A DNA stretch of 64,000 bases from Streptomyces sp. NBC_01260 (GTDB taxonomy: Bacteria; Actinomycetota; Actinomycetes; Streptomycetales; Streptomycetaceae): positions 1,674,001-1,738,000 of the forward strand of contig NZ_CP108464.1 in NCBI RefSeq assembly GCF_036226405.1, written 5' to 3'. How positions within the stretch are numbered: the first letter of the stretch is position 1; each line of letters begins with the position of its first letter. The notes beneath the pieces are model-generated. The model ran no database searches, was not told the DNA's origin, and saw nothing but the letters and a program-made list of their open reading frames with translations. Of the stretch, positions 4,569-35,690 are shown in pieces. The translations under genes and the position numbers were made by a program.

Positions 4569-5762
4569 GTGAACGCAACGCCGCTGAGCCCGGACGATCC
4601 GGCCGAGCTGGGCGGGTTCGCGCTGCTGGGACGGATCGGCCACGGCGGTATGGGCCAGGTCTACCTCGGCGAGTCCGCCGCCGGTGAGGCCGTCGCGGTG
4701 AAGGTCATCAAACCCACGGTCGTCGATTCGGAGACCCGGCAGCGGTTCGCCCAGGAGATCGAGGTCCTCAAGACGGTCTGGGGACCGCGCGTCGCCGCGT
4801 TCGTGAAGGCCGACACGGAGTCCGAGCAGCCGTGGCTCGCGACCGAGTACGTGGAGGGCCCCGACCTGCGCCGGCTCCTCGACACCCGGGGTGTCCTGTC
4901 GCCCCTGGCAGCCGCTTCGCTCGGAGCGACCCTTGCCGAGGCTCTGGCCGGAGTCCACAGCCAGGGGCTGCTGCACAGGGACCTCAAGCCGGCGAACATC
5001 CTGCTCGGCCCCAACGGCCCCAAGATCATCGACTTCGGCCTCGCCGTCTTCGCCGAGTCCAGCGCCTCCCTCACCGCACCGAACATGGTGATGGGCACTC
5101 CCGCCTGCATGTCTCCGGAGCAGGCGAACGGGGAGAAGCCGCTGACGGCCCCGGTGGACGTGTACGCGCTCGGGGCGGTGCTGCTCTTCATGAGCACGGG
5201 CCACTATCCGTACCAGGCCGACCACGTGCAGGTGCTGTTCAGCCACATCGTCAACCCCGAGAAGGCCCCCGACCTGTCGGGAGCCCCCGAGGAACTGGTC
5301 GGCCTCCTCTCGTCCATGCTCCGGTACGCGCAACACGACCGTCCGACGATGGACGAGGTCGTCACCCAGTGCGTTGCGGTCATCAAGGCGCACGGGGCGA
5401 CCGTGGCCCAGGCCCGACGGCAACTGGCCGCCCTGGCCAAGGTCGCGTACGCACCGCCGGAACCCTCCCCCGTACCGGCTCCGGCTCCGCCGCCCACCGA
5501 CGCCGAGGCTTTCTCCGAAGTGCCGACTCTCCTGGCCGCCCCGAACCCGGCGGCCATGGCACCGACCGTCCCACTGCCGCAGCCGTCCGTCGCCCCTGCC
5601 CACCCGCCGGGCTACACCCCGACGGTAGCGGTGACCACCCCGGAGGCCGAGGCCGCGCCCCGGCCCACGCCGGCGCCGCATCCTCGCCCCCGCCGTTCCG
5701 TCGCCGCGCTCCGGATCGCGGCACAGTTGCGGGAGACGTACGCGTCGACGGCGCCGTTCTGA
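4569..5762 (+). CDS. Soluble Ser/Thr protein kinase (PknB-type) at the head of the DISARM-like cluster
   Basis: A 397-residue Hanks-type kinase. The glycine loop GRIGHGGMGQVYLG is at residues 21-34, the ATP-anchoring Lys45 in VAVK, the catalytic loop HRDLKPAN near 136 and DFG near 155, followed by an activation segment ending in a CMSPEQ motif (APE equivalent). All key residues are present. After about residue 290 the protein is a Pro/Ala-rich linker with no membrane segment or PASTA domain, so it is cytosolic. The GTG at 4569 is preferred over the in-frame GTG at 4557 because GAGGTGGGG sits at the right distance. It points the same way as drmD 121 bases downstream. Kinases occur in several defence systems as sensors or effectors; a role here is inference from position. 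Confidence 0.85.
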   Translation: MNATPLSPDDPAELGGFALLGRIGHGGMGQVYLGESAAGEAVAVKVIKPTVVDSETRQRFAQEIEVLKTVWGPRVAAFVKADTESEQPWLATEYVEGPDLRRLLDTRGVLSPLAAASLGATLAEALAGVHSQGLLHRDLKPANILLGPNGPKIIDFGLAVFAESSASLTAPNMVMGTPACMSPEQANGEKPLTAPVDVYALGAVLLFMSTGHYPYQADHVQVLFSHIVNPEKAPDLSGAPEELVGLLSSMLRYAQHDRPTMDEVVTQCVAVIKAHGATVAQARRQLAALAKVAYAPPEPSPVPAPAPPPTDAEAFSEVPTLLAAPNPAAMAPTVPLPQPSVAPAHPPGYTPTVAVTTPEAEAAPRPTPAPHPRPRRSVAALRIAAQLRETYASTAPF

Positions 5763-5883
5763 GCGGGACGGCAGGCCGAGACGCTCCAGTGTGCGCCGGG
5801 CCGAGGTGGCACTCGCCCCTTGTCCGGAGGCGTGGCCCGCACGAAGATCTACACAGTTCAGCAGCTATCAGGAGGTACCGCGG

Positions 5884-8778
5884 GTGACCGCCCAGCAGTC
5901 CAGTCGGCCGTCCGGTGGGCAGCCCGTCCCGGGCACCGGTACGAGTCTCCCGCCCGGCGCCCAGATCGTCGTACGCGACGAGGAATGGCTGGTCAAGAAC
6001 GTCACCCGGACCGATCACGACGGCGACCGCATCGAAGCCGTCGGGGTCTCCGATTTCGTCCGCGATCAGGAGGCCGTCTTCTTCACGGGCCTGGAGCGCA
6101 CCCGCGACGGCGCGCCCGGCATCGAGTTGATGGACCCCGCCAAGACCACCCTGATCGGCGACGACTCACCGAACTTCCGCCGCAGCCGGCTCTTCCTCGA
6201 AGCGATCCTGCGCAAGACCCCACTGCCCCAGTCCGAGCGCGGTCTGGCCCTCGCCGACAGCTTCCTCCTCGACCCGCTGCCCTATCAGCAGCGGCCCGCG
6301 CAGCTCGCGCTCTCGGGGCGGAACCTGCGCCCCCGCATGCTGATCGCGGACGTCGTCGGCCTCGGCAAGACCCTGGAGATCGGACTCACCCTCGCGGAGC
6401 TGATCCGCCGCGGCCGCGGCGAGCGGATCCTCGTCGTGACCCCGCAGCACGTTCTGGAGCAGTTCCAGCACGAGCTGTGGACACGGTTCGCCATCCCGCT
6501 GATCCGCCTCGACTCCGCGGGCATCGAGCGGATCCAGCGGGAGATCCCGGCCGGCCGCAACCCCTTCACGTTCTTCAAGCGCGTGATCGTCTCGATCGAC
6601 ACCCTCAAGAACACCGATCAGTACAAGCACCATCTGGAGCACATCCGGTGGGACGCCGTCGTCATCGACGAGTCGCACAACCTGATCAACCGGGGTTCGC
6701 TGCGCAACCAGCTCGCGCAGCTCCTCGCCCCGCAGACGGACGCCCTCATCCTCGCCAGCGCCACCCCGCACAACGGCAACGCCCGCTCGTTCGCCGAGCT
6801 GATCGCGCTGCTCGACCCGGCGGCGATCCGTGACCCGGAGCGTTACTCGGCCGAGGACATCAAGCACCTGTTCATCCGCCGCACCAAGGTCAGCGCCGAG
6901 GTACGGGAGAAGATGTCCGGCCAGTGGGCCGACCGAGGGCCTTCCGAGTCGGTGCACTGCCCGGCGACCCCGGCCGAGGAGAAGATCTTCGACGAGCTGG
7001 CCCAGGTATGGCTGCCCGCCGAGGGCCGCTCGGTGAGCGACGTCCCGCTCTTCCCGTACACCCTGCTCAAGTCCTTCCTCTCCTCGCACGCTGCCCTGAG
7101 CTCCACGGTCGACACCCGGATGAAGACGCTGGAGAAGAAGAACGACCCGGACGCGACGGACGCCGAACTGGCCGCTCTCCAGCGTCTGCGCGGGCTGACG
7201 GCCGATCTGACCGCTCAGGATTCCGGCAAGTTCACCGCTCTCGTCGAGCAGTTGAAGGCGATCGGCGTCGGACCGCGCAGCGAGACACGCGTCGTGGTCT
7301 TCTCCGAGCGCGTCCAGACCCTGGAGTGGCTGCGGTCCGCCGTGCCGGCCGCGCTCGGGTTCAAGGGCAAGTCCCTGGAGGAAGCGGCCCGCGTGATGCA
7401 CGGCGGCCTGTCCGACGAGCAGCAGATGCAGTGCATCGAGGACTTCGGCCTCGCCGACGCACCCGTACGCATCCTCTTCACCGGTGATGTGGCGTCCGAG
7501 GGTGTCAACCTCCACCGGCAGTGCCATCAGCTCATCCACTACGACGTTCCGTGGTCGCTGATCCGCATCGAGCAGCGTAACGGCCGTATCGACCGTTACG
7601 GGCAGGTCCACAAGCCGCAGTTCCGCGCCCTGATCCTGACCAGCGAGGTGGACGGCGCGAAGGACGACCGCACGGTCGCCGAGCGCCTCCTCGAGCGGGA
7701 GGACGAAGCACACCGCTCGCTCGGCACGGCGGAGGCGGTCTCCGGCCTGTACCGCGCGGAGGCCGAGGAGAAGTCGCTGATCCAGGACCTGCTCAAGGGC
7801 CGGACGGTCGACGAGTCGCTCCAGCACACCGCGGACGAGGCGGGCGGCGCGGACGATTTCCTGGCCGACTTCTTCGCCCAGGTCGACGACGTGTCCGCCG
7901 AGCCCGCCGTCGCGGCTCCCGCGTCGGACGGTTCCTCGGCTGCCCCGCCGAAGGCCCACGTGCCCCGTCTCTTCACGACCACCCGCGAGTTCGTCGACGA
8001 GGCGGTACGGGAGGTCTTCCCCGACGCCCAGCAGTCCCTCGGGATGGACCGCGACCCCGAGAACGGCCTGATCTCCTTCAAGCCCCCGGCCGACCTGGTG
8101 CACCGGCTGAAGGCGCTGCCGCCCGACTACCGCCGCGAGCAGCGCCTGAGCGAGCGGCTGCTTGTCACCCTCAACCGCAAGCTGGCCGACCGGGCCCTCG
8201 TACGGGCCCGTGAGTCGGGCACCTCCAGCTGGCCGGAGATCTCCCTGCTCACCGACCTCCACCCGGTGGTGGAGTGGCTGACCGACAAGGTCCTGGTGAA
8301 ACTGGGCCGCCAGGAGGCCCCGGTCATCACGGCCGACGTCGACGCCCCCGTGTACCTCGTGCAGGGCATCTACTCCAACGCCCTCGGCCGCCCCACGGTC
8401 GTGAAATGGATGGCTGTCACCGGCGAGCACGTCACGGACGACATGGTGGGGACACTGCGCGAGGCAGGCATCGGCCCGACGATGGCCAACCCGTTGCAGC
8501 CCCACGACGCCGACGGCCTGCGGGCCGGTATCCCGGCCGCCCTGGAGTCAGCCGAGGCCTTCCTCTCGCGCCACAGCTCGGAGTGGGACAAGGCGCTCCT
8601 CGCCCCGATCGAGGAGTACCGGCAGCGCCTTGGCCAGTGGGAACAGCCCACCCTCGCCGGCGAGGAGACCAAGGACGACCTCTCCCGCCTCGCCGACTCC
8701 CTGCTGACGACGGGCCGGCCCATGCTGCGCGTCCTGGCCGTCCTCGACTCCGCCCACGGCTCCGCCGCGCACGCCTAG
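5884..8778 (+). CDS. drmD: SNF2-family DNA helicase, DISARM DrmD-like
   Basis: A 964-residue SNF2/HepA-type helicase. Motif I, VVGLGKTLE, is near residue 156, the Walker B box DESH near 260, motif III SATPHNG near 293, and the C-terminal RecA domain with the EQRNGRIDRYGQ box near 565-575. A large C-terminal extension is unassigned. Start choice: GTG with an ideal ggaggt 7 bases upstream. It is immediately followed by the methyltransferase gene, whose Shine-Dalgarno (aggag) overlaps this stop codon. An SNF2 helicase paired with an adenine methylase is the defining DrmD-DrmMI pair of class 1 DISARM. A RapA/HepA housekeeping helicase would not sit beside such a methylase. Confidence 0.8.
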   Translation: MTAQQSSRPSGGQPVPGTGTSLPPGAQIVVRDEEWLVKNVTRTDHDGDRIEAVGVSDFVRDQEAVFFTGLERTRDGAPGIELMDPAKTTLIGDDSPNFRRSRLFLEAILRKTPLPQSERGLALADSFLLDPLPYQQRPAQLALSGRNLRPRMLIADVVGLGKTLEIGLTLAELIRRGRGERILVVTPQHVLEQFQHELWTRFAIPLIRLDSAGIERIQREIPAGRNPFTFFKRVIVSIDTLKNTDQYKHHLEHIRWDAVVIDESHNLINRGSLRNQLAQLLAPQTDALILASATPHNGNARSFAELIALLDPAAIRDPERYSAEDIKHLFIRRTKVSAEVREKMSGQWADRGPSESVHCPATPAEEKIFDELAQVWLPAEGRSVSDVPLFPYTLLKSFLSSHAALSSTVDTRMKTLEKKNDPDATDAELAALQRLRGLTADLTAQDSGKFTALVEQLKAIGVGPRSETRVVVFSERVQTLEWLRSAVPAALGFKGKSLEEAARVMHGGLSDEQQMQCIEDFGLADAPVRILFTGDVASEGVNLHRQCHQLIHYDVPWSLIRIEQRNGRIDRYGQVHKPQFRALILTSEVDGAKDDRTVAERLLEREDEAHRSLGTAEAVSGLYRAEAEEKSLIQDLLKGRTVDESLQHTADEAGGADDFLADFFAQVDDVSAEPAVAAPASDGSSAAPPKAHVPRLFTTTREFVDEAVREVFPDAQQSLGMDRDPENGLISFKPPADLVHRLKALPPDYRREQRLSERLLVTLNRKLADRALVRARESGTSSWPEISLLTDLHPVVEWLTDKVLVKLGRQEAPVITADVDAPVYLVQGIYSNALGRPTVVKWMAVTGEHVTDDMVGTLREAGIGPTMANPLQPHDADGLRAGIPAALESAEAFLSRHSSEWDKALLAPIEEYRQRLGQWEQPTLAGEETKDDLSRLADSLLTTGRPMLRVLAVLDSAHGSAAHA

Positions 8779-8788
8779 GAGAATCCCC

Positions 8789-11700
8789 ATGACGTACGAC
8801 TCCCTGGTCAACCGCGGTGACTACTTCTCCGCGCACTACCTGGCCGAGGTCTTCCCGAAGGACCTCAAGTCCGGGCTCCTCGCGGCCTGGAAGACCCGCG
8901 AGGAGGAGGCCAAGTCCTCGGACTCGGACGACTCCGAGCAGGAACCGGCCCCGGACGCCCTCCCGGTAACCCCTCGTCTGGGTCTGCGCGCCCTGCGCCG
9001 CCCGTACTTCCGTAACCGCGCCTTCTTCGCGGAGGCGGCGGTCACGCACGACGACGCGACGACGTACGACGCACCCGAGTGGCGCGAGCGCGCGACCACT
9101 CTCAACGCGTCCGTCCTCCGCGCCCTCGGTTATGACGCCAAGCCCCAAACCCTGACGGTGTCGCGGGCGGACCACACGTACGAGATCCCCGTCGCACACG
9201 CCGAACCGGGTCTGGTGGCCGTCGACTGCGGCTGGGCCGCCGAGCCGGACGCGGCCCTGGACGCGGACGGCTCCGGCCGCCTCCTCACCCCCGTACAGCT
9301 GGACGCGTCCGCCTCTCTCCGTACGGGCTCGAAGCTCGCCTCGTTCCTCTTCGCGAGCGAGGACGCGCCACGGTACGTGCTGCTGCTCGCCGGCGGCGTG
9401 ATCGTCCTCGCGGACCGGGCGGCGTGGGGCGAGGGCCGCTACCTCGCGGCCTCCCTGGACACGGCCCTGGACCGCAACAACACCAAGGACGGCCAGGAAC
9501 TCGACACCCTGGCCGCCTTGTTCGGCGCGGACTCGCTGCGCACTCCGGAGGAGGGCGGCGAGAACCCGCTCGCCGGGCTCGTCGACAAGTCCACGAAGCA
9601 TGCCGTGGGCGTCTCGTCCGAACTCCGTGACGGCCTGCGCGAGTCGGTGGAACTCATCGCGAATGAGGTCCTGGCACGGATCGCCGGCCATGACGGCGTC
9701 CGCCTGGAGGACGTGAAGGAACTCCCGGAACTCTCCCGGCAGCTCACCCGCGAGTCGCTCCGCTACCTGTACCGCATTCTGTTCCTCCTGTACGCGGAGG
9801 CCCGCCCGGAGCTGGGCATCCTGCCGTCCGACTACCCGGAGTACCACCAGGGGTACGGCCTCGGCCGTCTCGGCGAACTCGTCGCGGAGCGGGACCTGGT
9901 GGGCGAGAAGGCCCGCGAGGGTGTCTACCTGTACGAGTCCCTGGACCTCCTCTTCAGCAAGGTCCAGGAGGGCTACCGGCCGCGCCGCACGCACGGGGTG
10001 GGCGCCAAGGACTCCGAAGACGTCGGCCTCCGCTTCGAACCCCTCCACTCGAAGCTCTTCGAACCGGAGTCGATCCGCCTGATCGGCGCGGAGTCGGTCA
10101 AGGACCCCCGCCACGACGACGACTCGGACGAGGGCCCGCGCTACCTGGACACCCGACTCCGCAACGCCACCCTGTACAAGGTCCTGCGGAAGCTGATGCT
10201 CACCCGGGGCAGGAAGGGCGAGCGCGGCGGCTTCATCTCGTACGCGCAGCTCGGCATCAACCAGCTGGGCGCGGTGTACGAGGGACTGATGTCGTACGCG
10301 GGCTTCATCGCGGGCGCGGAACTGTACGAGGTCGCGAAGAACGGCGACCCGAAGGACGGCTCCTGGCTGATCCCGTCCTCGAAGGCCGACGAGTACGCGG
10401 ACTCGGTCTTCGTCCGCCGGCGGGACGAGGAGACGGGCGCGGATATCCGGCTCCGGTACCGACCTGGCTCGTTCGTCTACCGCCTCTCCGGCCGCGACCG
10501 CCAGACCTCGGCCTCGTACTACACGCCGGAATCCCTGACGAAGGTCACGGTCCAGCTGGCGTTGCAGCACCGCCTGGACCAGGACGACACGGTCACCGAG
10601 GCCCGGGAGCTCCTGGACTGGAAGATCTGCGAGCCGGCCCTCGGCTCGGGCGCGTTCCTCAACGAGGCCATCAACCAGGTCGCGTCGGAATACCTGCGCC
10701 GCCGCCAGGACGAGACCGGCCGGGCCATCGACACCGAGCAGTACCCGGTGGAGCTCCAGAAGGCCAAGGCGTACATCGCGCTGCACAACTCGTACGGCGT
10801 GGACCTCAACTCGACGGCGGTCGAGCTGGCCGAGGTCTCGTTGTGGTTGAACACGATGCACCCGGGCATGGAGGCGCCGTGGTTCGGCCTCCATCTGCGG
10901 CGGGGCAACTCGCTGATCGGGGGCCGCAGGGAGATCTACTCTGCGGACCGCCTGAAGAAGGGCGGCTGGCTGGGCGCCACGCCAGAACGCTTCCCTCTCA
11001 CGGAGGCTTCGGCGGGCCTGCCGACCGGCTCGGTCCACCACTTCCTGCTCCCGGCGAAGGAGTGGGGCGCGGTCGCCGCCGAGAAGGAGGCGAAGGCCCT
11101 GGCCCCGGAGGAGGCGAAGGCCCTGGGCGCCTGGCGCAAGGCGATCACTAAGTCGCCGAGCGCGAAGCAGACGGCCCGGCTTCAGGGGCTCGCGCGTCGG
11201 GCGGAGTACCTGTGGCAGCTGGTGGTGCGTCGTTTGGAGATCTCCGAGCGGGACATCAGCCGCAAGATCGACGTCTGGGGTGCGGAGCCGCAGTGGCTGC
11301 GGCAGCCGGTGGAAGCGGTCCAGCGAGAAGAGGTCCTGGCGGACCTTGAGGCGGTGGACACCCCGTACTGGCGGCTGAAGACGCTGATGGACGCGTGGTG
11401 CGCGCTGTGGTTCTGGCCGGTCCAGGAGGCGTCGCTGCTGAATGGCACGAATCCCCGTTACCGGCAGGCGGCGGAGCTGGCGGAGCAGTCGGCGGCGTAT
11501 GAGGTGGCGGTCTCGGGGGCGGAGGACGAGGAAGAGGACGAGGACGAGAGCGCCGGTGTCCTGATGTCCTGGGAGGAGGAGGCCCTCCCTGGTTTTGGTA
11601 CGGAGGCCAAGCAGCTCTCCTTGACCCAGGAGGCCGTGGCCAAGCGCCGGATGGGCCGCCGCAAGGAGTCCATCACTGAGCGGCGCCGCGAGGTGATCCC

Positions 11701-13864: not shown

Positions 13865-13886
13865 AGCTCGTAACACGATCTTGTTG
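13864..13886. repeat. Left terminal inverted repeat of the IS
   Basis: Matches the reverse complement of 15295-15317 at 21 of 23 positions. The first base is also the last base of the drmMI TAG codon. Confidence 0.85.
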
Positions 13887-13938
13887 AAGTGTCCTGGTTG
13901 GGCGTTACCGGTGTGACGATTCGGCCGTTCGTGATGGT

Positions 13939-14742
13939 GTGGGTACTCGACCGTGGATCGTGGACGATGAGTTGTGGGCGTTGATCGAGCCGTTGCTGCC
14001 GCCGTGGCCGGAGCGGTCGCCGGGGCCTCGGCCGGTGTCGGACCGGCTCTGTCTGCAGGGCATCCTGTTCGTCCTCTACAACGACATAGCCTGGCAACCG
14101 CTGGAGCTGGGGTTCGGCTCAGGGCAGACGTGCTGGCGTCGCCTGGACCGATGGCAGAAGGCAGGGGTCTTCGACCGGCTGCACCGGATCCTGCTCGCCG
14201 AACTGAACGCGGCCGGCGAGCTTGACTGGTCCCGGGCGTGCGTGGATGGCTCCCACATCCGCGCGAAAAAGGGATCCGACACCGGCCCGTCGCCGGTCGA
14301 CCGGCGGAAGGCGGGCAGCAAACACCGCCTGATCTGCGACGGACGCGGCACCCCGCTCAAGGTCATCACGACCGCGGCCAACGTCAACGACGTCACCCAG
14401 ACCCTCGCCCTGGTCGACGGCATCCCGCCCGTCGCGGGCCGCCCAGGCCGGCCCCGCCGCAGACCTGAAGCTCTGCTTGGCGACAAGGGATACGACTCCA
14501 ACGCCCACCGCGACGCGCTGCGTCATCGGCGAATCCTGCCCATCATCTCCCGCAAGGGATCACCGAACATCAAGGGCTTGGGCAAGCTCCGCTACGTTGT
14601 CGAGCAGACCTTCGCTCTGCTCCACCACTTCAAGCGCCTGGCCGTCCGCTGGGAACGCCGCACCGAACTCCACGACGCCTTCGTCTCCCTCGCCTGCAGC
14701 CTCATCTGCTGGCGGCGGCTTCGGAAACCCAAGAACGGCTGA
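13939..14742 (+). CDS. IS5-family transposase (DDE type)
   Basis: A 267-residue single-frame transposase. The N-terminal helical region (WIVDDELWALIEPLLPPW) is the DUF4096-type DNA-binding part. The catalytic core shows CVDGSHIRAKKG (first Asp), LLGDKGYDSN (second Asp) and, near the end, RYVVEQTFALLHHFKRLAVRW carrying the final Glu. All three acidic residues are present and the frame is unbroken, so no programmed frameshift is needed and the enzyme is probably active. GTG start at 13939. It lies wholly inside the inverted repeats, reading rightward. Confidence 0.92.
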   Translation: MGTRPWIVDDELWALIEPLLPPWPERSPGPRPVSDRLCLQGILFVLYNDIAWQPLELGFGSGQTCWRRLDRWQKAGVFDRLHRILLAELNAAGELDWSRACVDGSHIRAKKGSDTGPSPVDRRKAGSKHRLICDGRGTPLKVITTAANVNDVTQTLALVDGIPPVAGRPGRPRRRPEALLGDKGYDSNAHRDALRHRRILPIISRKGSPNIKGLGKLRYVVEQTFALLHHFKRLAVRWERRTELHDAFVSLACSLICWRRLRKPKNG

Positions 14743-14829
14743 CTGGTGTCAGGGCAGGCCAGGGGCCCCGACCGGCTGCTTCAGAACGTTGGTACCCTCC
14801 GCATCTACAGCGAGGCGGGGGAGATAATC

Positions 14830-15216
14830 GTGGGAACAGAGCCGTCGCGACCTCCGAGCCGCTGGTTTAGAGGAACTGGCTTTGGGGTCCTCTTCGGTGG
14901 GCTGACCACGGTGGTGACCACTGCTGCCATTGGGAGGGCCTGGGCTGCTTGTGACATCGGTAGCAGCGCAGCAGCCAACAGCATGACTTTGCTGCTTCTT
15001 GCGCCTCTCATATGGATCGCCGCTGCAGTTCCGTGGGTGATCCTGCACGGCACCCTCGGGAAACGTCATCGCAGGACAGCCCTGACTGCAGGGCTCGTCT
15101 TCACCCTGTGGTTCGCCTGGTTCCTCGTCACATGGCTCGGCATGCCGGACTCCTACCCCGCCCCGCTGTGCCCGGCCAACGTCCCACCCTGGTGGCCGAG
15201 CTTCGTCCCGGCATGA
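14830..15216 (+). CDS. Small membrane protein carried inside the IS (passenger gene)
   Basis: A 128-residue protein with three hydrophobic segments at about residues 15-37, 48-69 and 81-101 and a short Pro/Trp-rich C-terminus. No family is recognised. The GTG start follows a good gggggag. The gene lies between the transposase stop and the right terminal repeat, in the same orientation, so it travels with the element. Ordinary IS5 elements end soon after the transposase, which makes this extra cargo unusual. It could be a captured chromosomal gene or a toxin- or immunity-like peptide; nothing in the sequence decides. Confidence 0.65.
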   Translation: MGTEPSRPPSRWFRGTGFGVLFGGLTTVVTTAAIGRAWAACDIGSSAAANSMTLLLLAPLIWIAAAVPWVILHGTLGKRHRRTALTAGLVFTLWFAWFLVTWLGMPDSYPAPLCPANVPPWWPSFVPA

Positions 15217-15294
15217 CTCCGGCGAAGCCTACGAACGGCCTTGGCACAGGAAACAGCAACCTACTCAGCTGCCCCCGACCAGGCCGCTGCATGC

Positions 15295-15317
15295 CAGCAA
15301 GATCGTGTTACGAGTTC
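15295..15317. repeat. Right terminal inverted repeat of the IS
   Basis: Pairs with 13864-13886; the adjoining GTA at 15318-15320 duplicates the GTA at 13861-13863. Confidence 0.85.
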
Positions 15318-16415: not shown

Positions 16416-16562
16416 GATCCGCGCCTCCCACGCCCAACGCCCCGGCCGTCCCGCCGGTCACGCCCCGCACTGCCGACATCCTCCGCACCAACGCATACAG
16501 CCCGCACCCGTCCGCGCGTCACTCCTGGTCAACGGCACTCACGCAACGCCACCGTTGGCGGC

Positions 16563-22345: not shown

Positions 22346-22390
22346 ACGCCCGTACCGGATAGCGGAGCTCACCAGGGGGGAGAGCGCTCA

Positions 22391-26502: not shown

Positions 26503-26607
26503 ACTGGCCGGAATCATTCACGATCAGTCATTGCCCGGAGCGTTGTCGGCGGCGCCGTATACCGTTGGCGCAGCTCACCGACCTGGCACGAAGCGAAGGA
26601 GATCGCC

Positions 26608-29600
26608 GTGAGGCCCACGCTGGCCGCCGCGCAGCTGCGGGGCAGTCTCACCCAGTACCTCACGACGACGTACGCACTCACCGACGAGGACACCCGTCGG
26701 GCGCTGGAGCGGTTCCTCGAACATCCCGAGACCGGGATGTTCCGTGGCCCCTATCTGCGGATCAGGACCCCCTTCCACAAGGCCGTTGCCGGCTGGGAGA
26801 AGCACCTGGAGTGGAACCCTGGCTTCACCCCGTACCGGCATCAGGCGAAGGCGTACGAGCGGCTGAGCACGCTCCACGGGCCCGCCCTGCCGACGCTGGT
26901 CACGACGGGGACGGGTTCCGGGAAGACCGAGTCGTTCCTCGTCCCCGTCCTCGACCACTGCCGACGTGAGAAGGCACTCGGGCGCCGCGGGGTCAAGGCC
27001 GTGCTGCTCTATCCGATGAACGCGCTCGCCACCGATCAGGCCGGCCGCATCGGCGAGTACCTCGCGCAGCCGGAACTGGCCCAGGTGACCGCGGGGCTCT
27101 ACATCGGCGACCGGCCGGACACCGACTTCCGCCGGGTGATGACGCGGCGTGAGGAGATGCGGCAGTCGCCGCCCGACCTGCTCATCACGAACTACAAGAT
27201 GCTCGATCTGCTGCTCCAGCGGACCGAGGACCGCGCGCTGTGGCAGGACTCCGGGATCCAGTACGTGGTGCTGGACGAGTTCCACACCTATGACGGGGCG
27301 CAGGGCACGGACGTCGCCATGCTGCTGCGCCGCCTGGCTATGGCCACGGGGCAGAGCGAGCCCGGGCGTCCCCTCGGTTCGATCTGCCCGGTGGCGACCT
27401 CGGCGACCCTCGGTGAGGGCGGGCCCGGGACCGGTCCCGGCTCCATCCTGGAGGTGGCTGCTCAGGTCTTCGGGATGCCCTTCTCCAAGGACGCGCTGGT
27501 GGGCGAGGAGCGGATGACACCCGAGCAGTTCACCGGGCCGGTGAACTACGGTCTGCCCGAACCGCCTTCGCCCGAGGAGGTCATCGCCTGCTCCGGTGGC
27601 CCCGATGTGGTGTCGCGTCCGGACTTGCTCGATCTCAATGCCCTGGCGGCTCGGATGCTCGGGCAGCAGGGCCTGTCCGCCTTCGAGATCGGGCGGCTGC
27701 TCAAGCAGCACGACTTCACTCAGGGGGTGCTGTCCCTCCTCGACGGGGACCCGCTGAGCGAATGGGAACTCCGTGACCGCCTCGGCCGGTTCGGGTACAC
27801 CTGGGGCCGGACCGCGCGGGAGAACCCCCGCCTCGCCCTCGCCGCGCTCGCACGCTTCGTCGCCCTGCTGTCGGCGGCCCGCGATCCGGAATCGGACGAG
27901 CGCCGCCCGCGCCCCCTGCTGCACGTGGAGACCCACCTGTGGATCCGGCCGGTCGGCCGGATCGTGCGCGGAGTCGGCCCGGGAAAGCCCGAGTTCCACT
28001 GGTACGAGGACGATCGCGCTCGGCGCTCCGCCCTGCTCGCGACGCCCTCTGAGGGCGACGAGGAACCCGAAGCCGGCCAGATCGGGCACGTGGCGCGTTC
28101 TCATCGCGCGCAGTCGGCGATCGGCGCGGACACCGCCGTACGGCAGGCGAGCATAAGGCTGCCTGCCGTGTACTGCCGCAACTGCGGCCGCTCCGGCTGG
28201 GCGGCCGTCTCCCCGGAAGCCGATCCCCAACAGCTCGTGATGGCCCACGACAAGATCTGGCGCGCCAGCGTGGGGCGGGAGAAGCGGCGGGTCCGCTATT
28301 TCATCGCCGCCACGGCGGCGGAGCAGGAGGACACGCTGGCGGCGGTCAGCCAGTCCCGCCCCGCAACGGGAGGCGGACAGCCACCGGCGCTGATCCTGGA
28401 CGGTGCTCAGGGGACCTACCGGCTGCCGGTCGCCCAGGACGCCGGGAGCCTTCAGGACGCCTGTTTCGTCCAGGCGATCACCGAGAAGAAGACCGCCGAC
28501 CGGGCTGCCGTCGATCAGCGCTGCCCTGCCTGCGACACCGACAACGCGATGCGCTTCCTCGGCACTCGGCCGGCAGCCCTGGCGGCCGCGACGGTGACCC
28601 AGCTGTTCACCGGTCAGGAGGTCGCACTCGAAGCGGAGGAGCGCAAGACCCTCCTGTTCAACGACTCGACCCAGGACGCCGCCCACCGTGCGGGGTACGT
28701 GGCAAACCGGTCGTTCACGTTCTCGCTGCGCTCACTCCTCGCGCGCAACCTGGACGAGTCCGGCAAGCCGTCGGCTCTCAACGACCTGATCGGGAACGTG
28801 CTCGACTCCGTCGAGGATCCGCAGGCCCTCGCGGCTGTCGTCCCGCCCGATCTGTACGACGAACCAGGCGTGGACCGGCTGCTCTCCGGGCGGGGCACGG
28901 GCGATCTGCGGACCTGGAAGCTCATCGGAGAGCGGCTCGCCTTCGCCACCGTCATGGAGTTCGGACTCCGATCCCGGCAGGGCCGCACCCTGGAGCTGAC
29001 CCGGACGGCGGCCGCCGAGGTCGTCATCGGGGACCAGCACCGGATCACCATGCTCGCCCGCGACCTGCACATGTCCTTGCCCGGTCAGCTGCTCGGCACC
29101 GGCCTGCCGACGGCCGAGCGCTATCTGGCCTTCGTCCGCGGGCTGCTGGAGCGGGTCCGGCTGCGCGGCGGGGTCCGGCACCGGTGGCTGGAGCCGTGGA
29201 TGAAGGACGCCGGGGTGACCCGGTTCAAGATCTGGGGCGGCAGGCCCGACGGCATGCCGGCGTTCCCCGACAGTGTGGCCGCGCCGCGCTTCCTGCTCGA
29301 CGGTGACAAGGGCAGGTCCGACTTCGACTCGACGACAGCCCGCACCGGCTGGTACCAGGACTGGGCGCGCCGGTGCCTGGGCCTCGACGCCCCCGGGGCT
29401 GCGGAGTATCTCCGCAGGCTGCTGCCGGTCCTCGTCGACGAGGGTCTCCTCGCGGTGCGGACGGCACAGGACCGGACGACGAAGGTCTACGGCCTGCAGC
29501 CCGGCCATGTCGAGGTGCGGCTGCTTGAGGACGACATCGTCAACAAGGCCTTCGTCACCTGTGAGGCGTGCGGCTGGCAGCAGGTGGTCCATCCCTCCCG

Positions 29601-32600
29601 GCGGACCCGCTGGTACGGCCATCCCTGTCCCCGGTACCGGTGCCGGGGGCAGATCACCGCGCCGCAACCGGGCCAGGCCACGGTGCTGTCCTCCGGTTCC
29701 ACCAGCTTCGGCGGCCCCCGGCCGCGCGACTACCGCGATGACTACTACCGGCACCTCTACCGGACGGGTGGCACCTTCCGGGTGGTCACGGCCGAGCACA
29801 CCGGCATGCTCACCCGGCCGCAGCGGGAGCGCGTGGAGCGGGCCTTCCGCGACGGCACCCACTACACCGACCCGAACGTGCTGTCGTGCACTCCGACCCT
29901 GGAGCTCGGCATCGACATCGGAGACCTGTCCGCGGTCCTCCTGGGATCGCTTCCGAAAGGCCCTGCCAACTACGTGCAGCGAGCGGGCCGTGCGGGCCGC
30001 AGGACGGGCAACGCCCTGGTGGTGGCCTTCGGCGGTCGCCGGGCCCGCGATCTGTACTACCTGGACGAGCCTCGGGAGATGATCGCCGGGGACATCGTGC
30101 CGCCCGGCTGCTACCTCTCCGCGGTGGAGATCCTGCGCCGCCAGTACACGGCACACCTTCTGGACCTCGCGGCGCGGGGCCGGCTCACGACGAGCGACGG
30201 TGAGCCACTGCAACCCGCGCCGCGCCTGGTGTCGGCGCTGTTCGGCAGCACGGCCTGGTGCCAGGATCTCGCGGACGCGGCCCTCGCCCATGGCGCCGTG
30301 CTCGTCGAATCGTTCCTGGCCCTCTTCCCCTCACTCCCGGGCCGGCCGGACACCGGGGTCTCCGGCCAGGCCGCCGACGAACTCCGCACGTACGCGTGCG
30401 GTGGCATCGTGCGCGCGCTCCAGGAAGCCGAGGAGGAATGGACCGGCCGCGGTGAGGAACTCCGGCGCCGACTCCACGCCATCGACACCGCGATGGACCA
30501 GCTCGTGCGCAGCGATCCCGAGCAGGAACGCGAATGGCGCGAGTTGCGCGCCGAGCGCTACGCGACGGGCAACCTGCTGCGCGACCTGAACCAGACCAGT
30601 GCCCACGGGGCTCTCGTCGAGCTCGGTCTCCTGCCCAACTACACCCTCTCGGACACCACCACGCAGCTGGAAGCCACCCTCTCCTGGACCGAGCAGCCCG
30701 AGACCGAAGGGGCCAAGAAGACCTACCACAGCGAGGTCCGGGACTACGAGCGCTCCCGCCGGTCCGCGCTGTCCGAACTGGCGCCCGGCAACAGCTTCTA
30801 CGTCAACGGCTACAGGCACGTCGTCCGGGCCCTGGACATCGGCAGTCCGGAGCGCCGTGCCTGGTCGGTGTGGCGCATGTGCCCCGCCTGCGGCTACGTC
30901 CGTACGGAGAACTCCCAGGCCGATGCCTCGCCCTGTCCCCGGTGCGGCGGCCGGGAGATCGCCGACGCCGGCTGTGTCCAGCGCGTTCTGGAACCGAAGC
31001 GGGTCATGTCGCGCGACAAGCGGGACGACGCCCGCGTCCGGGACGACAAGGACGAGCGCGACAGCAGAAGGTACGCCGTCCTCACCACCGTGGACGTCGA
31101 CCCCGTGCACCTGGCTACGGGCTCCTGGCGCCATGACACCGCCGTCTTCGGCGTCGACTTCACCCGCCAGGCCGTGGTGCGCACGCTCAACCTGGGCCTC
31201 GACCGTCAGGACGGCAGCAGCACCGTGCCCCTCGCCGGGGCCGAGGTGCGGATCAACCCGTTCTACGTCTGCACGAGCTGTGGCGGCGCCACCTCCGAGG
31301 GGCGTCCGGTCGTGGACCACCATCAGGACGCGCTCACCGAATCCCTTGCAGCGGCGACCAGGGCCAGCGCCCACCACCAGCTCTGGTGCCCGCGCCGCAA
31401 GGTCCGTACAAGCGCCCCGGAAGGTCAGGGGAAGGGAGAGGACGTCCCTCTGCTCCTGGCCCACGAGCTGACCACCGAGGCCGTCCGCATCCTGCTTCCC
31501 GCATCGGTCGCCCGCGTCAAGGAACGCCTCGCGTCCTTCACCGCCGCGCTGTTCGTGGGCATCGCCGCTCGCTACGGCGGCGACCCGGACCACATCGACA
31601 TCACCGCCGCGTCGATGCCTGACGGCAACGACCCGGAATGGCCTCGTCGTTTCCTCGTCGTCTACGACCGTCTGCCGGGCGGCACCGGCTATCTGCACCG
31701 GCTCGCCACCTCCGACGGCTTCCGCGAAGTGCTGCTGAGGGCCCGCGAGGTGATCGACAACTGCCCGTGCATCGAGAAGGGCCTCGACGGCTGCCACCGC
31801 TGTCTCCTGCGCCGCGTACCGGCCGGCGACTACGACAAGGTCAGCCGCAACGAAGTCCGGCAGATGTTCGACGAACTGCTGGGAGCCGACGGCGGCGACT
31901 GGGCCACCTCACCGGTCGCGGCCACCCACCAGATCCCATTGGAGCAGCAGGCCGAGAGCGATCTTGAGGTCATGTTCATGGAGACCTTGGTCGAATGGGC
32001 GAAGCAGCCCTCGGCCAAGGCCAGTGCGGACGCCTACACGACCACGGCCGGGACGTACTCACTGGACCTGCGGCTGACCGGCGTGGACGGGGCCACCTTG
32101 AGCTGGCGGGTCTCCCAGCAGCGGGTCCTCGACGGCACCCGCCCCGACGTCCTCTTCGAACGTACCGATGCACCCGGTCCGCGGATCGCGCTCTACCTCG
32201 ACGGATACGAGTTCCACGCCGGGCCGAAGCACAAGGACAGGCTCGCCGACGACGCCGTCAAGCGCACCAGGCTGCGCGCCGACGGGATACGGGTCTTCCA
32301 GCTCACCTACTACGACGTGAAGGACTGGCGGACCCGGGTCCGCGACACAGGGTACGCGAGCACGGGGCCGGAGAACCCGGTCTGGTTTCCGTACGGCGAG
32401 CAGGGCCAGAAGCGTGCCCGCGACTACTACGCGGGCGTGCACGGCGGCCTGCCGGGCGAGCTGTCCGCGAAGCTCTGGGTGAATCCGGCGGACCTTCTGA
32501 TCGCTTATCTGCGTGCCCCGGACGCTTCCTTGTGGCAGCAGCGCGCCGAGGCCGCCGTCGCGGGGCTGCTGGGCGCCGGGGCCCGGATCGCCGCGCTGCA

Positions 32601-33438
32601 CCCTCAAGCCGTCGGCGAACAACTCCTCATCGCGCTGCGGGGCGGCGCCCCGCAGGGGCCCAAGGGACCGGTGCAGCTGCTGACCGCGGTCGACGCCGCA
32701 GGATGTGTGGTCACCGCCGCCGCGGACGGTCGCCACCGGCCGCCGATGTGGACCGGGCTGACCCCGCTCGACGACAGCGACCGGGCCGTCTCGGACGAGG
32801 CCGGGCACAAGCGGCGCTGGCAGGGCTGGCTCTACTGGAGCAATGTGCTGCAGTTCCTGGAGCACGGCGGCGGTGACAGTGTCCAGTTGACGACCAGCCT
32901 GCTGGAAGGCTTCACCGTCGACGGCCTCAGCGTCGCCGGAGGCTCGGGCTGGCTCGAATCGCAGCGGGCCGAGCGGCCGGCCGCCGCCGCCGTCACGGCG
33001 AGTCCCGCCGGAGACGTCGTGGAAGAGCCCGCCCCGGTCATCCCCGCCTCTCGGCCCGCCCAGCCCACCAACGCAGCTCATGACACGGGCTGGGGACAGG
33101 TGCTGGAGTTCCTCGACCCCGATGAGCCCGGTCTGCTCCCCCTCAGCCAAGGGCTGTGCGCTCTGGACGTGGTGCCGCCGGAAGCCGGCTACGAGCTGGA
33201 CGAGCACGGCTGGATGGCCGAACTCGCCTGGCCCTCCGCCCAAATCGCCGTGGTGACGGCCCACCGACCGGCCGACGGGGAGCGCGACCACGACGCGGAG
33301 GACCGGGACAGGGCCTTCGCCGCGGCAGGCTGGTGGATCAGCACAGCCGTCTCCTGCACCCCCCGGGACATCAAGGACCTCCTTGCCGCGGCAGAGGGCG
33401 AAGACACGGACACGAACGACGGAGACCAGCAGCGATGA
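26608..33438 (+). CDS. Giant DEAD/DEAH helicase with DUF1998 and C-terminal PD-(D/E)XK-like nuclease
   Basis: 2276 residues. Motif I TGTGSGKTE is near residue 100, the Walker B box is DEFH near 223, SATL near 265, and the second RecA lobe has TPTLELGIDIGD (about 1095) and QRAGRAGR (about 1125), so the two lobes are separated by some 700 residues of inserted domains. Zn-binding Cys pairs recur (near 521, 638, 986, 1007, 1426, 1447, 1554). The DUF1998 block with LPGGTGYLHRL and C-x-C-x7-C-x2-C lies at about 1690-1735. From about 1840 a Vsr/DUF559-like nuclease follows (RPDVLF ... LYLDGYEFH). It combines what DISARM splits into DrmA (helicase) and DrmB (DUF1998) and adds a nuclease; MrfA/YprA helicases are the other relatives. 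GTG start with aaggag. The stop overlaps the next gene (ATGA). Confidence 0.82.
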   Translation: MRPTLAAAQLRGSLTQYLTTTYALTDEDTRRALERFLEHPETGMFRGPYLRIRTPFHKAVAGWEKHLEWNPGFTPYRHQAKAYERLSTLHGPALPTLVTTGTGSGKTESFLVPVLDHCRREKALGRRGVKAVLLYPMNALATDQAGRIGEYLAQPELAQVTAGLYIGDRPDTDFRRVMTRREEMRQSPPDLLITNYKMLDLLLQRTEDRALWQDSGIQYVVLDEFHTYDGAQGTDVAMLLRRLAMATGQSEPGRPLGSICPVATSATLGEGGPGTGPGSILEVAAQVFGMPFSKDALVGEERMTPEQFTGPVNYGLPEPPSPEEVIACSGGPDVVSRPDLLDLNALAARMLGQQGLSAFEIGRLLKQHDFTQGVLSLLDGDPLSEWELRDRLGRFGYTWGRTARENPRLALAALARFVALLSAARDPESDERRPRPLLHVETHLWIRPVGRIVRGVGPGKPEFHWYEDDRARRSALLATPSEGDEEPEAGQIGHVARSHRAQSAIGADTAVRQASIRLPAVYCRNCGRSGWAAVSPEADPQQLVMAHDKIWRASVGREKRRVRYFIAATAAEQEDTLAAVSQSRPATGGGQPPALILDGAQGTYRLPVAQDAGSLQDACFVQAITEKKTADRAAVDQRCPACDTDNAMRFLGTRPAALAAATVTQLFTGQEVALEAEERKTLLFNDSTQDAAHRAGYVANRSFTFSLRSLLARNLDESGKPSALNDLIGNVLDSVEDPQALAAVVPPDLYDEPGVDRLLSGRGTGDLRTWKLIGERLAFATVMEFGLRSRQGRTLELTRTAAAEVVIGDQHRITMLARDLHMSLPGQLLGTGLPTAERYLAFVRGLLERVRLRGGVRHRWLEPWMKDAGVTRFKIWGGRPDGMPAFPDSVAAPRFLLDGDKGRSDFDSTTARTGWYQDWARRCLGLDAPGAAEYLRRLLPVLVDEGLLAVRTAQDRTTKVYGLQPGHVEVRLLEDDIVNKAFVTCEACGWQQVVHPSRRTRWYGHPCPRYRCRGQITAPQPGQATVLSSGSTSFGGPRPRDYRDDYYRHLYRTGGTFRVVTAEHTGMLTRPQRERVERAFRDGTHYTDPNVLSCTPTLELGIDIGDLSAVLLGSLPKGPANYVQRAGRAGRRTGNALVVAFGGRRARDLYYLDEPREMIAGDIVPPGCYLSAVEILRRQYTAHLLDLAARGRLTTSDGEPLQPAPRLVSALFGSTAWCQDLADAALAHGAVLVESFLALFPSLPGRPDTGVSGQAADELRTYACGGIVRALQEAEEEWTGRGEELRRRLHAIDTAMDQLVRSDPEQEREWRELRAERYATGNLLRDLNQTSAHGALVELGLLPNYTLSDTTTQLEATLSWTEQPETEGAKKTYHSEVRDYERSRRSALSELAPGNSFYVNGYRHVVRALDIGSPERRAWSVWRMCPACGYVRTENSQADASPCPRCGGREIADAGCVQRVLEPKRVMSRDKRDDARVRDDKDERDSRRYAVLTTVDVDPVHLATGSWRHDTAVFGVDFTRQAVVRTLNLGLDRQDGSSTVPLAGAEVRINPFYVCTSCGGATSEGRPVVDHHQDALTESLAAATRASAHHQLWCPRRKVRTSAPEGQGKGEDVPLLLAHELTTEAVRILLPASVARVKERLASFTAALFVGIAARYGGDPDHIDITAASMPDGNDPEWPRRFLVVYDRLPGGTGYLHRLATSDGFREVLLRAREVIDNCPCIEKGLDGCHRCLLRRVPAGDYDKVSRNEVRQMFDELLGADGGDWATSPVAATHQIPLEQQAESDLEVMFMETLVEWAKQPSAKASADAYTTTAGTYSLDLRLTGVDGATLSWRVSQQRVLDGTRPDVLFERTDAPGPRIALYLDGYEFHAGPKHKDRLADDAVKRTRLRADGIRVFQLTYYDVKDWRTRVRDTGYASTGPENPVWFPYGEQGQKRARDYYAGVHGGLPGELSAKLWVNPADLLIAYLRAPDASLWQQRAEAAVAGLLGAGARIAALHPQAVGEQLLIALRGGAPQGPKGPVQLLTAVDAAGCVVTAAADGRHRPPMWTGLTPLDDSDRAVSDEAGHKRRWQGWLYWSNVLQFLEHGGGDSVQLTTSLLEGFTVDGLSVAGGSGWLESQRAERPAAAAVTASPAGDVVEEPAPVIPASRPAQPTNAAHDTGWGQVLEFLDPDEPGLLPLSQGLCALDVVPPEAGYELDEHGWMAELAWPSAQIAVVTAHRPADGERDHDAEDRDRAFAAAGWWISTAVSCTPRDIKDLLAAAEGEDTDTNDGDQQR

Positions 33439-35690
33439 CGACCACGGGCGTGACCCTGCGTCTGCTCGACAAGGCGGACAAGGAGATCCTGAGGCTGCCT
33501 CGTGCGGTCAAGGGCGCGATCTACGACTTCCAGCACAAGTTCAAGGAGAACCCGCAGCTCCGGGGTCTGCGGTTGAAACAACTGGAGGGTCACGACCGGC
33601 TCTGGTCGGCCCGTGTCAACGACGAGTACCGGGCCCTGCTGCTGCGCCTGGCGGAGACCGACTGGCTCATCGTCTCCGTCAAACACCGCAAAGACGTGTA
33701 CGAGAAGCTCGACCGGCTCTCATACGGAATCAACCGGATCACCGGCGGCATCGAGTACGTAGACCTCGAGATCGTCGAGGAGAGCGTCCTGCGTCGGGCG
33801 GCGACTCCCGGGCCGGCCACCGCCCCCATCGAGCCTGCCCCGGCGCCCGCTCCCGTCCCGCTGTTCGCCGCGTTCTCCGATGAGCAGCTCACTGACCTCG
33901 GCGTCGCGGGACCGCTCGTACCGGTCGTCCGGACCCTGACCACAGAGGATCAGCTCCTCGGCCTGGCGGAGTACGCCCCGCAGCTCACTTCCGAAGTCCT
34001 GCTCGCACTTCACGACGGCGCGTCGTACGACGCGGTGCTGGAGCAGATCACCAGTCCCGTCTCCGCACCGGACCCCGTCGACACCGACGACTTCCGGGTC
34101 GCCGCCGAGCGGCCGGCCACCATGGTCACGACGACGGACGAGGCGCTGCGCGAAGCCCTGGAAGGCGGCGACTTCGGTCGGTGGAAGGTATTCCTCCACC
34201 CGACCCAGTCCCGGCTCGTCGACCGCGAGTACTCGGGCCCCGCCCGGGTGGGTGGCGGGCCGGGCACGGGCAAGACCATCGTGGCCCTGCACCGGGTCAA
34301 GCACCTGGTGGACCGGCTCCCTCCCGGACGCAACAAGCCCGTCCTCCTCACCACGTACAACAAGAATCTTGCCGCCGACCTCAGGTCACGGCTGCTCCAG
34401 CTGGGCGGCGAGGAGCTGCTGGCGCGGGTGGAGATCAGCCACGTCGATCAGCTCGCGCTGCGCGTCGTACGCGAAGCCGAGCCCGGAAGCGCCAAGCAGA
34501 CGCTCGACGAGAGCCAGGCTCTCCGAGAGTGGCGTGCCATGCTCGACGAGCTGGGCGAAACCGGGTGGGACGCCCAGTTCCTGCACGACGAGTGGTCGCA
34601 GGTCATCCTGGGCCAGGCCGTCGTCTCCCGCACCGAATACTTCCGTGCGCGGCGAGCCGGCCGGGGCAAGAACATCGCACGGGCCGAGCGCGCCGAGATC
34701 TGGCAGCTCGCGGAGCGTTTCACCCAGCGACTCGACCGCCTCGGGCGGCAGACCTGGGAACAGGTCGCGGAGCGCGCGGCGCGGCTGGAGATGGACCGCG
34801 AGCGGCGGATCCAGGCCGTCGAGCGTCAGCGGGAGGAGGCGGGTGGTCTCGACAACATCCATCTTCAGGCCGGCTCCGCGGGCTGGCTGCGGCACCGCTT
34901 CCAGCACATCGTCGTCGACGAGGCACAGGACCTGCGGGCCGCGCACTGGAAGCTGCTGCGGGCGATGGTGCCGCGTGCCGCCAACGACATCTTCCTCGTG
35001 GGCGACACGCACCAGCGTATCTACGGCAACCAGGTCACGCTGGGCAGCCTCGGGGTCCATATCCGCGGCCGCTCGGCCAAGCTCACGTTGAGCTACCGAA
35101 CGACGCGGCAGATCCTCGGCTCCGCTCTCGGGGTGCTCAGCGGTGAGAGCTTCGACGACTTGGACGGCAGTACCGAGGACCTGGCCGGGTACAGGTCCGT
35201 CCTGACCGGAAGCCTTCCGCAGTTGCACGGTTGCGAGGACTGGGAGTCCGAGCAGGAGTCGATCGCCGCACTCCTCGTCGACTGGATCGCCCTGCCGACA
35301 CCCCCAGGGCAGATCGCCGTCTGCGTTCCGACCAACGCCATGGCAAGCGAGCTTGCTTACACTCTGCTCGCCCACAAGGGGATCAAGGCCGTCGAGATCG
35401 GCCCCGAAGGCCCTCGTGGAGACGAAGGCGTCCACATCGGCACGATGTTCCGCTTCAAGGGACTCGAGTACCAGCGCATGGTCATCGCGGGCGTGCGGGA
35501 CGGGCTCGTCCCCCGGGAGGCGGTCACCCGCCTACAGAGCGACGATGCCGTCCGCTATCGACGCGAGCTCCAGCGGGCCCGCTCACTGCTCTTCGTCGCT
35601 GCCACCCGTTCTCGGGACAGCCTCGCCATCTTCTGGCACGGCCGTCCGAGCCCGTTCCTCGGACCGCTCATGCGTTTGCCCGCTTCATGA
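33435..35690 (+). CDS. RelE/ParE-like domain fused to UvrD/Rep SF1 helicase
   Basis: 751 residues. Residues 1-95 read as a RelE-superfamily fold (LRLPRAVKGAIYDFQHKF, LKQLEGHDRLWSARVNDEYR, IVSVKHRKDVYEKL), the core of mRNA interferase toxins. A Pro/Ala linker follows, then a UvrD-type helicase: GGGPGTGKT near 273, VVDEAQD near 492, LSYRTTRQIL near 555, MFRFKGLEY near 675 and LFVAATRSRDSL near 722. It is translationally coupled to the giant helicase, so the two are made in step. The RelE part may be a nucleic-acid-binding module rather than an active RNase; catalytic residues of RelE vary too much to judge by eye. Confidence 0.83.
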   Translation: MTTTGVTLRLLDKADKEILRLPRAVKGAIYDFQHKFKENPQLRGLRLKQLEGHDRLWSARVNDEYRALLLRLAETDWLIVSVKHRKDVYEKLDRLSYGINRITGGIEYVDLEIVEESVLRRAATPGPATAPIEPAPAPAPVPLFAAFSDEQLTDLGVAGPLVPVVRTLTTEDQLLGLAEYAPQLTSEVLLALHDGASYDAVLEQITSPVSAPDPVDTDDFRVAAERPATMVTTTDEALREALEGGDFGRWKVFLHPTQSRLVDREYSGPARVGGGPGTGKTIVALHRVKHLVDRLPPGRNKPVLLTTYNKNLAADLRSRLLQLGGEELLARVEISHVDQLALRVVREAEPGSAKQTLDESQALREWRAMLDELGETGWDAQFLHDEWSQVILGQAVVSRTEYFRARRAGRGKNIARAERAEIWQLAERFTQRLDRLGRQTWEQVAERAARLEMDRERRIQAVERQREEAGGLDNIHLQAGSAGWLRHRFQHIVVDEAQDLRAAHWKLLRAMVPRAANDIFLVGDTHQRIYGNQVTLGSLGVHIRGRSAKLTLSYRTTRQILGSALGVLSGESFDDLDGSTEDLAGYRSVLTGSLPQLHGCEDWESEQESIAALLVDWIALPTPPGQIAVCVPTNAMASELAYTLLAHKGIKAVEIGPEGPRGDEGVHIGTMFRFKGLEYQRMVIAGVRDGLVPREAVTRLQSDDAVRYRRELQRARSLLFVAATRSRDSLAIFWHGRPSPFLGPLMRLPAS

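Follow-up and report, generated by a model that had tools for sequence, protein, structure and literature searches.

A probable kinase-headed ARMADA Type II operon with a regulator and cargo slot in Streptomyces sp. NBC_01260

The locus and its core genes

The window analysed here is a stretch of 64,000 nucleotides of Streptomyces sp. NBC_01260 (NZ_CP108464.1; contig 1, 1674001-1738000, of a 9.28-Mb genome in 3 contigs, labelled G000), and its positions 4569-35690 carry a core operon that, judged by homology, is almost certainly an ARMADA Type II system of four Arm proteins, headed by a protein kinase gene. An initial annotation had placed a kinase, an SNF2 helicase and an adenine methylase in this order on the plus strand and, past an interruption, a DEAD and DUF1998 helicase with a C-terminal nuclease-like region and a UvrD helicase with a RelE-like N-terminus. 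All five were recovered when genes were called by reading frame and position-specific guanine-plus-cytosine (GC) content and domains were assigned by Pfam and PADLOC profile scans:

4569..5762, plus strand: Ser/Thr protein kinase of 397 amino acids, at the head of the operon (Pkinase, 161 bits)
5884..8778, plus strand: ArmA, SNF2/RapA/BrxHII-type helicase of 964 amino acids, 35% identical to Escherichia coli ArmA
8789..13864, plus strand: ArmB, PglX/type IIG-like N6-adenine methyltransferase of 1691 amino acids, with an NPPW motif at residue 1066
12044..13588, plus strand: presumed target-recognition part of ArmB (about residues 1086-1600), low in GC and different among three sisters
26608..33438, plus strand: ArmC, YprA-family helicase (DEAD, Helicase_C, MZB/DUF1998) of 2276 amino acids with a C-terminal PD-(D/E)xK/Vsr-like region
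33435..35690, plus strand: ArmD, RelE-like N-terminus fused to a UvrD/GajB-like helicase, 751 amino acids

ArmA may start further upstream, at a GTG at 5791. ArmB aligns with its E. coli counterpart in two blocks of 35% and 32% identity, and its methylase scored 951 bits against the type IIG profile, far above its score of 174 bits for DrmMI of DISARM. Residues from about 1086 to 1600 are presumed from their position to recognize the target. The GC content of this part is 0.56 vs 0.69 in the core, and residues 1101-1600 share 38-65% identity with those of two sister strains (L106 and L122), compared with 91-100% for residues 1-900; the divergence together with the lower GC fits an exchange of specificity. 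The target part differs in the window, L106 and L122 alike, as if a specificity module had been swapped by recombination.

In ArmC, the DEAD, Helicase_C and MZB domains all exceed the Pfam cut-off, and the protein shares 29% identity with E. coli ArmC over 2087 alignment columns. Its C-terminal region contains an LDGxxxH-type stretch common to the aligned ArmC set and, by alignment, looks nuclease-like. ArmD, whose start overlaps ArmC by 4 bp, is 32% identical to E. coli ArmD and is a UvrD helicase by Pfam with GajB as top PADLOC match. A profile of its N-terminus, built from a cross-phyla alignment, matched the RelE-like toxin 2khe (E 1.1e-4) and YoeB (E 4e-4), with RelE/YoeB matches ranging from 1e-4 to 5e-4; a protein A chain outranked them with E 3.3e-5 over 40 positions, and a single-sequence AlphaFold model of the RelE-like part had a confidence score (pLDDT) of 41 and no usable fold.

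A conserved operon of the ARMADA type

The kinase-SNF2-methylase block and the DEAD-UvrD block form one system, as the initial annotation had proposed. Among 150 same-genus genomes, 20, that of the window among them, have kinase-ArmA-ArmB-slot-ArmC-ArmD in this order on a single contig, as seen in 29 stretches fetched for reading and in the window itself. In G057, ArmB of the first copy was called from the methylase search only, and the ArmC of G119 was recovered as several pieces. Methylase matches occurred in 25 of the 150 genomes, and most of these matches have SNF2 and UvrD matches collinear with them. G033 carries all four Arm genes but no kinase, and the clusters of G142 and G017 are each divided between contigs. 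The same annotation had suggested looking at whether the methylase is directly followed by the helicases where cargo is absent, and such an empty slot, with ArmB overlapping ArmC by 4 bp, was found in 15 of the 27 named loci that show the start of ArmC. L167, of S. cinnamoneus, is an example of a kinase-bearing cluster with no slot. "Named loci" here means the top 80 out of at least 563 named relatives, a set biased to close kin.

A lone ArmB, its tblastn match interrupted by one stop codon, was also noted at L101 (contig 13 of G131). An XRE regulator and the defence system Menshen come after it, and neither ArmA nor ArmC was called within the 20 kb. It is possible that L101 is a remnant or a reduced form of the same arrangement.

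ARMADA was named in September 2025 in a preprint by Bell et al. (PMC12458937; the statements taken from it refer to the parts of its main text considered here). Type II is described there as an SNF2 protein, a PglX-like methylase, a YprA helicase with a C-terminal nuclease and a RelE-UvrD protein, with emphasis on a strict gene order, and the YprA helicase of ARMADA is said to be closest to DruE. In E. coli, the only host in which anti-phage activity was demonstrated, all four genes were required, and protection was direct and not abortive (PMC12458937). The window agrees with this description in domains and in gene order, since ArmA-ArmB-ArmC-ArmD stand in the required order on the single plus strand, with ArmB and ArmC adjoining in slot-free relatives. 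All four window proteins align over most of their length with those of the E. coli plasmid operon L105, with 29-35% identity. The window differs from the published type in the Ser/Thr kinase that precedes the operon, of which the main text of the preprint makes no mention, and in the separation of ArmB from ArmC by regulator genes, Menshen and a helicase with a phospholipase D (PLD)-like match.

The nearest relatives of the window by ArmA are Streptomyces. A chromosomal E. coli copy (L315) lies at tRNA-Leu/ahr, which is the context of Figure 5B of Bell et al. (PMC12458937), and its ArmA is disrupted by IS1. A 2-kb piece of ArmC DNA is present in 518 of 5426 E. coli genomes.

The kinase before ArmA

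The catalytic residues K45, H136, D138, N143 and D155 of the kinase are kept in 73-74 of 75 aligned kinases, the remainder being gaps. Of the 78 named loci that could be evaluated, 74 have the gene immediately upstream of ArmA (two of the 80 are cut by a contig end, and four are without the kinase). Where it precedes ArmA, it is on the same strand, with a median gap of 117 bp. Since the named loci are biased to close kin, an even class-wide sample was taken, comprising 296 genomes, 55 of them with matches, from which only the 32 strong ArmA matches were followed; the kinase was present at 15 of 29 evaluable newly fetched loci (30 fetched), or at 17 of 31 when two previously included loci are added.

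In a pooled ArmA tree of 131 rows (10 near-copies having been removed from 141), the kinase immediately precedes ArmA in 104 of the 127 rows that could be evaluated. All 104 fall in one clade of 111 rows with a support of 100*, the rest of the clade being five rows without the kinase and two not judgeable, and a further 18 kinase-less rows lie outside it. The kinase label changes six times on the tree vs a mean of 21.5 and a minimum of 17 when labels are shuffled, and the kinase has probably been present since the base of its ArmA clade. Kinase distances correlate with ArmA distances with a Mantel r of 0.89, compared with 0.96 for ArmB. The low-GC plasmid operons L105, L209, L220 and L221, which were missed by the GC-based gene caller, are outside the tree; by annotation, none of them has a kinase directly upstream.

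A kinase was also met as part of the YprA helicase itself. In all seven ARMADA-I-like streptomycete operons read, ordered YprA-SNF2-methylase and including one in the window's own genome, the YprA helicase bears an N-terminal kinase domain (by Pfam for two), for example, at L217:8188-14514 (minus strand), L214:10022-16345 (minus strand) and L322:3365-9712 (plus strand). These operons, together with three DISARM loci considered below, come from 11 loci hand-picked among weak SNF2 matches, the eleventh of which (G043) fits neither group.

Some kinase-less actinobacterial ARMADA II loci (L272, L273, L274, L275 and L207) carry a DrmB/DUF1998-like gene immediately or almost immediately upstream of ArmA, which looks like the addition of a part of DISARM.

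The slot between ArmB and ArmC

The region between ArmB and ArmC had been treated as an interruption by an IS and cargo. An element with an IS4/5-type transposase is indeed present, and the region is more than filler, as it also holds three kinds of regulator genes and a complete Menshen system:

13865..15316, no strand assigned: IS4/5-type insertion sequence of 1452 bp with 19-bp terminal inverted repeats (one mismatch) and a 5-bp target duplication, CGTAG
15376..15579, minus strand: DUF397 (BldB-like) protein, by Pfam
15576..16415, minus strand: XRE-DUF5753 (WhiJ-like) transcription factor, by Pfam, recurring in the ArmB/ArmC slot
16629..17033, plus strand: HATPase (AbaA/anti-sigma-like) protein, with HATPase_c_2 in the longer frame 15690-17033, recurring in the slot
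18199..19161, minus strand: membrane-protein-like gene (by eye), with no Pfam or PADLOC match and with relatives in L106, L122 and G109
19887..21200, plus strand: NsnA (GmrSD_N/DUF262), PADLOC 440 bits
21197..22345, plus strand: NsnB (AAA ATPase, DUF3696), PADLOC 386 bits
22391..23326, plus strand: NsnC, PADLOC 330 bits
23333..26521, minus strand (start may be 26362): SF1 helicase (AAA_11/AAA_12) with DUF5710 and a weak C-terminal PLD-like match, a Mokosh-like accessory gene

The break between ArmB and ArmC is old, since regulator genes stand there in many kinase-bearing loci, and only the insertion sequence at 13865-15316 looks recent. The latter begins right after the armB stop codon and is missing from the slots of the two sister strains, which makes it look like a recent addition.

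XRE-DUF5753, DUF397 and HATPase genes are of the WhiJ, BldB and AbaA kind, as described in the sections considered of PMC10294661. A regulator was scored in the slot when at least one of the three stood between ArmB and ArmC or the locus end, which was the case in 50 of 94 evaluable kinase rows vs 0 of 20 kinase-less rows, a count that omits loci without a regulator and without ArmC in view (10 kinase rows and 3 kinase-less). The label changes eight times on the ArmA tree vs 38.5 times after shuffling. DUF5753 matches number 37 in the window genome, or roughly one every 250 kb, so that presence in the slot, within a few kilobases, is not expected by chance. In a tree of the XRE proteins with 29 own-genome paralogues, from which the ambiguous G109 row was excluded, slot XREs fall in several lineages, with 11 label changes vs 24.1 shuffled; at least six of the 11 are forced by well-supported branches, and several long branches meet. 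This distribution over several paralogue lineages suggests that the regulator was repeatedly recruited. In a plasmid of S. jietaisiensis, all three regulator genes lie upstream of the kinase instead. No paper on a regulator slot in ARMADA was found (the supplement of PMC12458937 was outside the scope).

A similar arrangement was found in DISARM. In three of three streptomycete DISARM loci read (in G117, G140 and G148; operons L323/L329, L325/L330 and L324/L331), an XRE-DUF5753 gene lies between the SNF2-methylase pair and DrmA, accompanied by DUF397 in two loci and by HATPase in one. By profile, DrmD and DrmMI were identified in G117 and DrmA and DrmB in each of the three loci; DrmC was not confirmed. 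These loci are closely related to one another.

Cargo and neighbouring genes

The genes at 19887-23326 match the NsnA, NsnB and NsnC profiles in order and make up the system called Menshen; the window copy is nested in the ARMADA operon and does not stand alone. Menshen lies in the slot in 11 tree rows, with four label changes vs 10.6 shuffled. The ten NsnA genes nearest to that of the window in the genus survey are divided among the slot (six), the flank of the lone ArmB (one) and other places (three). The sister genome G437 (of L106) has the slot order of the window, PLD helicase included, with an extra called gene of 492 amino acids and without the insertion sequence, while the sister L122 has Menshen and no PLD helicase in its genome.

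The PLD-carrying helicase had been counted as a sixth component and as one of three fused helicase-nucleases. The gene exists, with a PLDc_2 match below the Pfam cut-off, yet it lies on the minus strand, divergent from ArmC, so that the three helicases do not form one gene run; two of the three carry a nuclease-like part, and the third has the RelE-like domain instead. Its helicase part matches MkoA of Mokosh with 208 bits, and MkoC is matched with 149 bits, best over the C-terminal part. As a core part, it was rejected, since no more than 4 of the 150 same-genus genomes, that of the window among them, have near-full-length matches; it is a recurrent neighbour and not a core gene. A sister genome carries a copy with 92% identity at the corresponding place in its slot. 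PLD-carrying SF1 helicases were also seen divergent beside ARMADA-type operons in more than one genus (L214, L217, L319 and L318). The 20-kb stretch that holds another homologue, in G108, contains a DUF4011/MTES_1575 helicase and lacks ARMADA genes, an argument against a strict link between the PLD helicase and ARMADA.

The operon is flanked as follows:

2-4211, minus strand: Wadjet type II genes JetC-JetB-JetA (JetA2, JetB2 and the N-terminal part of JetC2), by PADLOC

JetC extends past the window edge and is partial here. Wadjet type II genes also adjoin the kinase in the sister L106. On the other side, 3' of ArmD, lie a TrmA-like RNA methylase, a permease and TrkA-type genes.

Alternative readings and related systems

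A kinase-bearing ARMADA Type II anti-phage system of actinomycetes is, with fair confidence, the best explanation of the locus as a whole, and the kinase is likely to be a functional component of it. Several observations weigh on the other side. The Mantel correlations are confounded by host phylogeny; the kinase is absent in five rows of its own clade (L108, L152, L183, L184 and G033) and, in the even sample, was found at only about half of strong ArmA loci; and kinase-less clades, E. coli included, indicate that ARMADA can work without it. No operator shared by the promoters of the kinase and the XRE gene was found, their longest common word being 9.3 bases vs 8.9 in mismatched pairs, which speaks against a simple regulatory connection. 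Furthermore, the kinase-fused operons are ARMADA-I-like by order only, and the SNF2 protein of the own-genome one is DpdE by PADLOC (1697 bits).

The kinase could instead be a stand-alone defence gene of the PD-T4-6/Stk2 kind that travels with ARMADA in actinomycetes, a reading that is considered unlikely and that has several points in its favour: the PADLOC matches of the kinase are mad6 (the best) and single-gene PD-T4-6 kinases, the gene can be lost, as in the five rows named, and the E. coli, cyanobacterial and alphaproteobacterial plasmid operons were read without an adjacent co-directional kinase, the two annotated kinases of Nostoc lying some 7-12 kb upstream in another gene group. It accords poorly with the single clade with few losses across many genera, the close same-strand spacing before ArmA, the co-divergence with ArmA and the fusion of a kinase domain to the YprA helicase in related operons.

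A chance defence island, in which Wadjet II, a kinase-helicase-methylase module, Menshen, a Mokosh-like helicase and a DruE-like pair merely adjoin, is very improbable: several named systems are indeed packed here, and PADLOC names the two halves differently, but the conserved gene order and the 4-bp overlap of ArmB and ArmC refute it for the five-gene core, and it holds only for Wadjet, Menshen and the PLD helicase.

The initial annotation had read the locus as a rearranged six-gene DISARM subtype with the PLD helicase included. A relationship and an added kinase were borne out: SNF2 helicase, methylase and YprA/DUF1998 functions are common to class 1 DISARM and the window, the XRE-DUF5753 gene before DrmA in the three Streptomyces loci is of the same kind as that of the window slot, and the PLD helicase recurs beside ARMADA-type operons (the window, G437, G013, G049 and Murinocardiopsis). 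The subtype itself was rejected and is hardly credible, since the profile scores of the window, 265 bits for DrmD (ArmA), 174 for DrmMI (ArmB) and 48 for DrmA (ArmC), are a fifth or less of those of true streptomycete DISARM proteins (DrmD 1347, DrmMI 1542 and DrmA about 1025 bits, with DrmB at about 270). DISARM has DrmA and DrmB as separate genes, whereas no separate DrmB or DrmC is among the matches listed for the window, and the PLD helicase, on the opposite strand, is missing from most ARMADA loci and from the sister L122 genome. To our knowledge, ArmD has no DISARM counterpart.

Druantia resembles the window in that the best PADLOC profile for ArmC is DruE3, with 294 bits (the best DrmA match having 48). 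It differs in the ArmA/ArmB/ArmD set of the window and in its own partners, as beyond the DruE-like ArmC, no other Dru protein, neither DruH nor DruA-D, is among the matches listed for the scanned proteins. Pgl/BREX type 2 and MADS likewise combine a Ser/Thr kinase (PglW and Mad6) with a methylase in one anti-phage cluster, whereas neither PglZ nor BrxC is among the matches listed for the window; PglW is described as a much larger multidomain protein in the sections considered of PMC12839542. Other BREX-related new systems of that report are DUF499-centred by their description, do not have the window's gene set and were rejected as candidates (PMC12839542).

Proposed function and significance

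ARMADA itself is already known as a broad anti-phage system, and the kinase branch, the kinase-YprA fusion and the regulator and cargo slot appear to be undescribed in searchable texts; no paper joining the kinase and ARMADA was found, and the main text of PMC12458937 does not contain the word kinase (its supplement was outside the scope).

Judged by homology and by what Bell et al. found in E. coli, host DNA would be methylated by ArmB at a site that its exchangeable target-recognition part determines, and ArmA, as an SNF2 translocase, would work together with ArmB on DNA. Unmodified phage DNA would be attacked by ArmC, a helicase with a nuclease-like region, and the RelE-UvrD protein ArmD, together with ArmA. 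The kinase most likely gates the restriction half, switching it on or off by phosphorylating an ARMADA protein. The likeliest partner is ArmC, as the YprA helicase is itself kinase-fused in ARMADA-I-like operons, and this assignment is put forward tentatively, at somewhat less than an even chance of being right.

By the insertion of the slot regulators, Menshen and the PLD helicase, a single operon would have become two or more transcription units flanking a cargo slot. The probable role of the regulators is to control the restriction half, or the cargo, apart from the methylation half. It is possible, and rather doubtful, that they separate the timing of methylation and cutting. Slightly more doubtful still is the wider proposal that streptomycete ARMADA II and DISARM are both split between a modifying half (SNF2 and methylase) and a cutting half (YprA) by repeatedly recruited genes of the BldB/WhiJ/AbaA type, with ARMADA adding a kinase gate.

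If this is true, methylation would come first and cutting later, phage defence would be coupled to development, and a function would be found for some of the orphan WhiJ/BldB/AbaA clusters, of which these genomes have dozens. A Ser/Thr kinase that marks one large actinomycete branch of ARMADA and occurs fused to YprA helicases in related operons would supply a regulatory component so far missing from the ARMADA/DISARM/Druantia superfamily. Genes of the WhiJ/BldB/AbaA type in both ARMADA and DISARM would give a concrete role to a long-enigmatic regulator family and would illustrate how a system of the restriction type can be controlled separately from its methylase.

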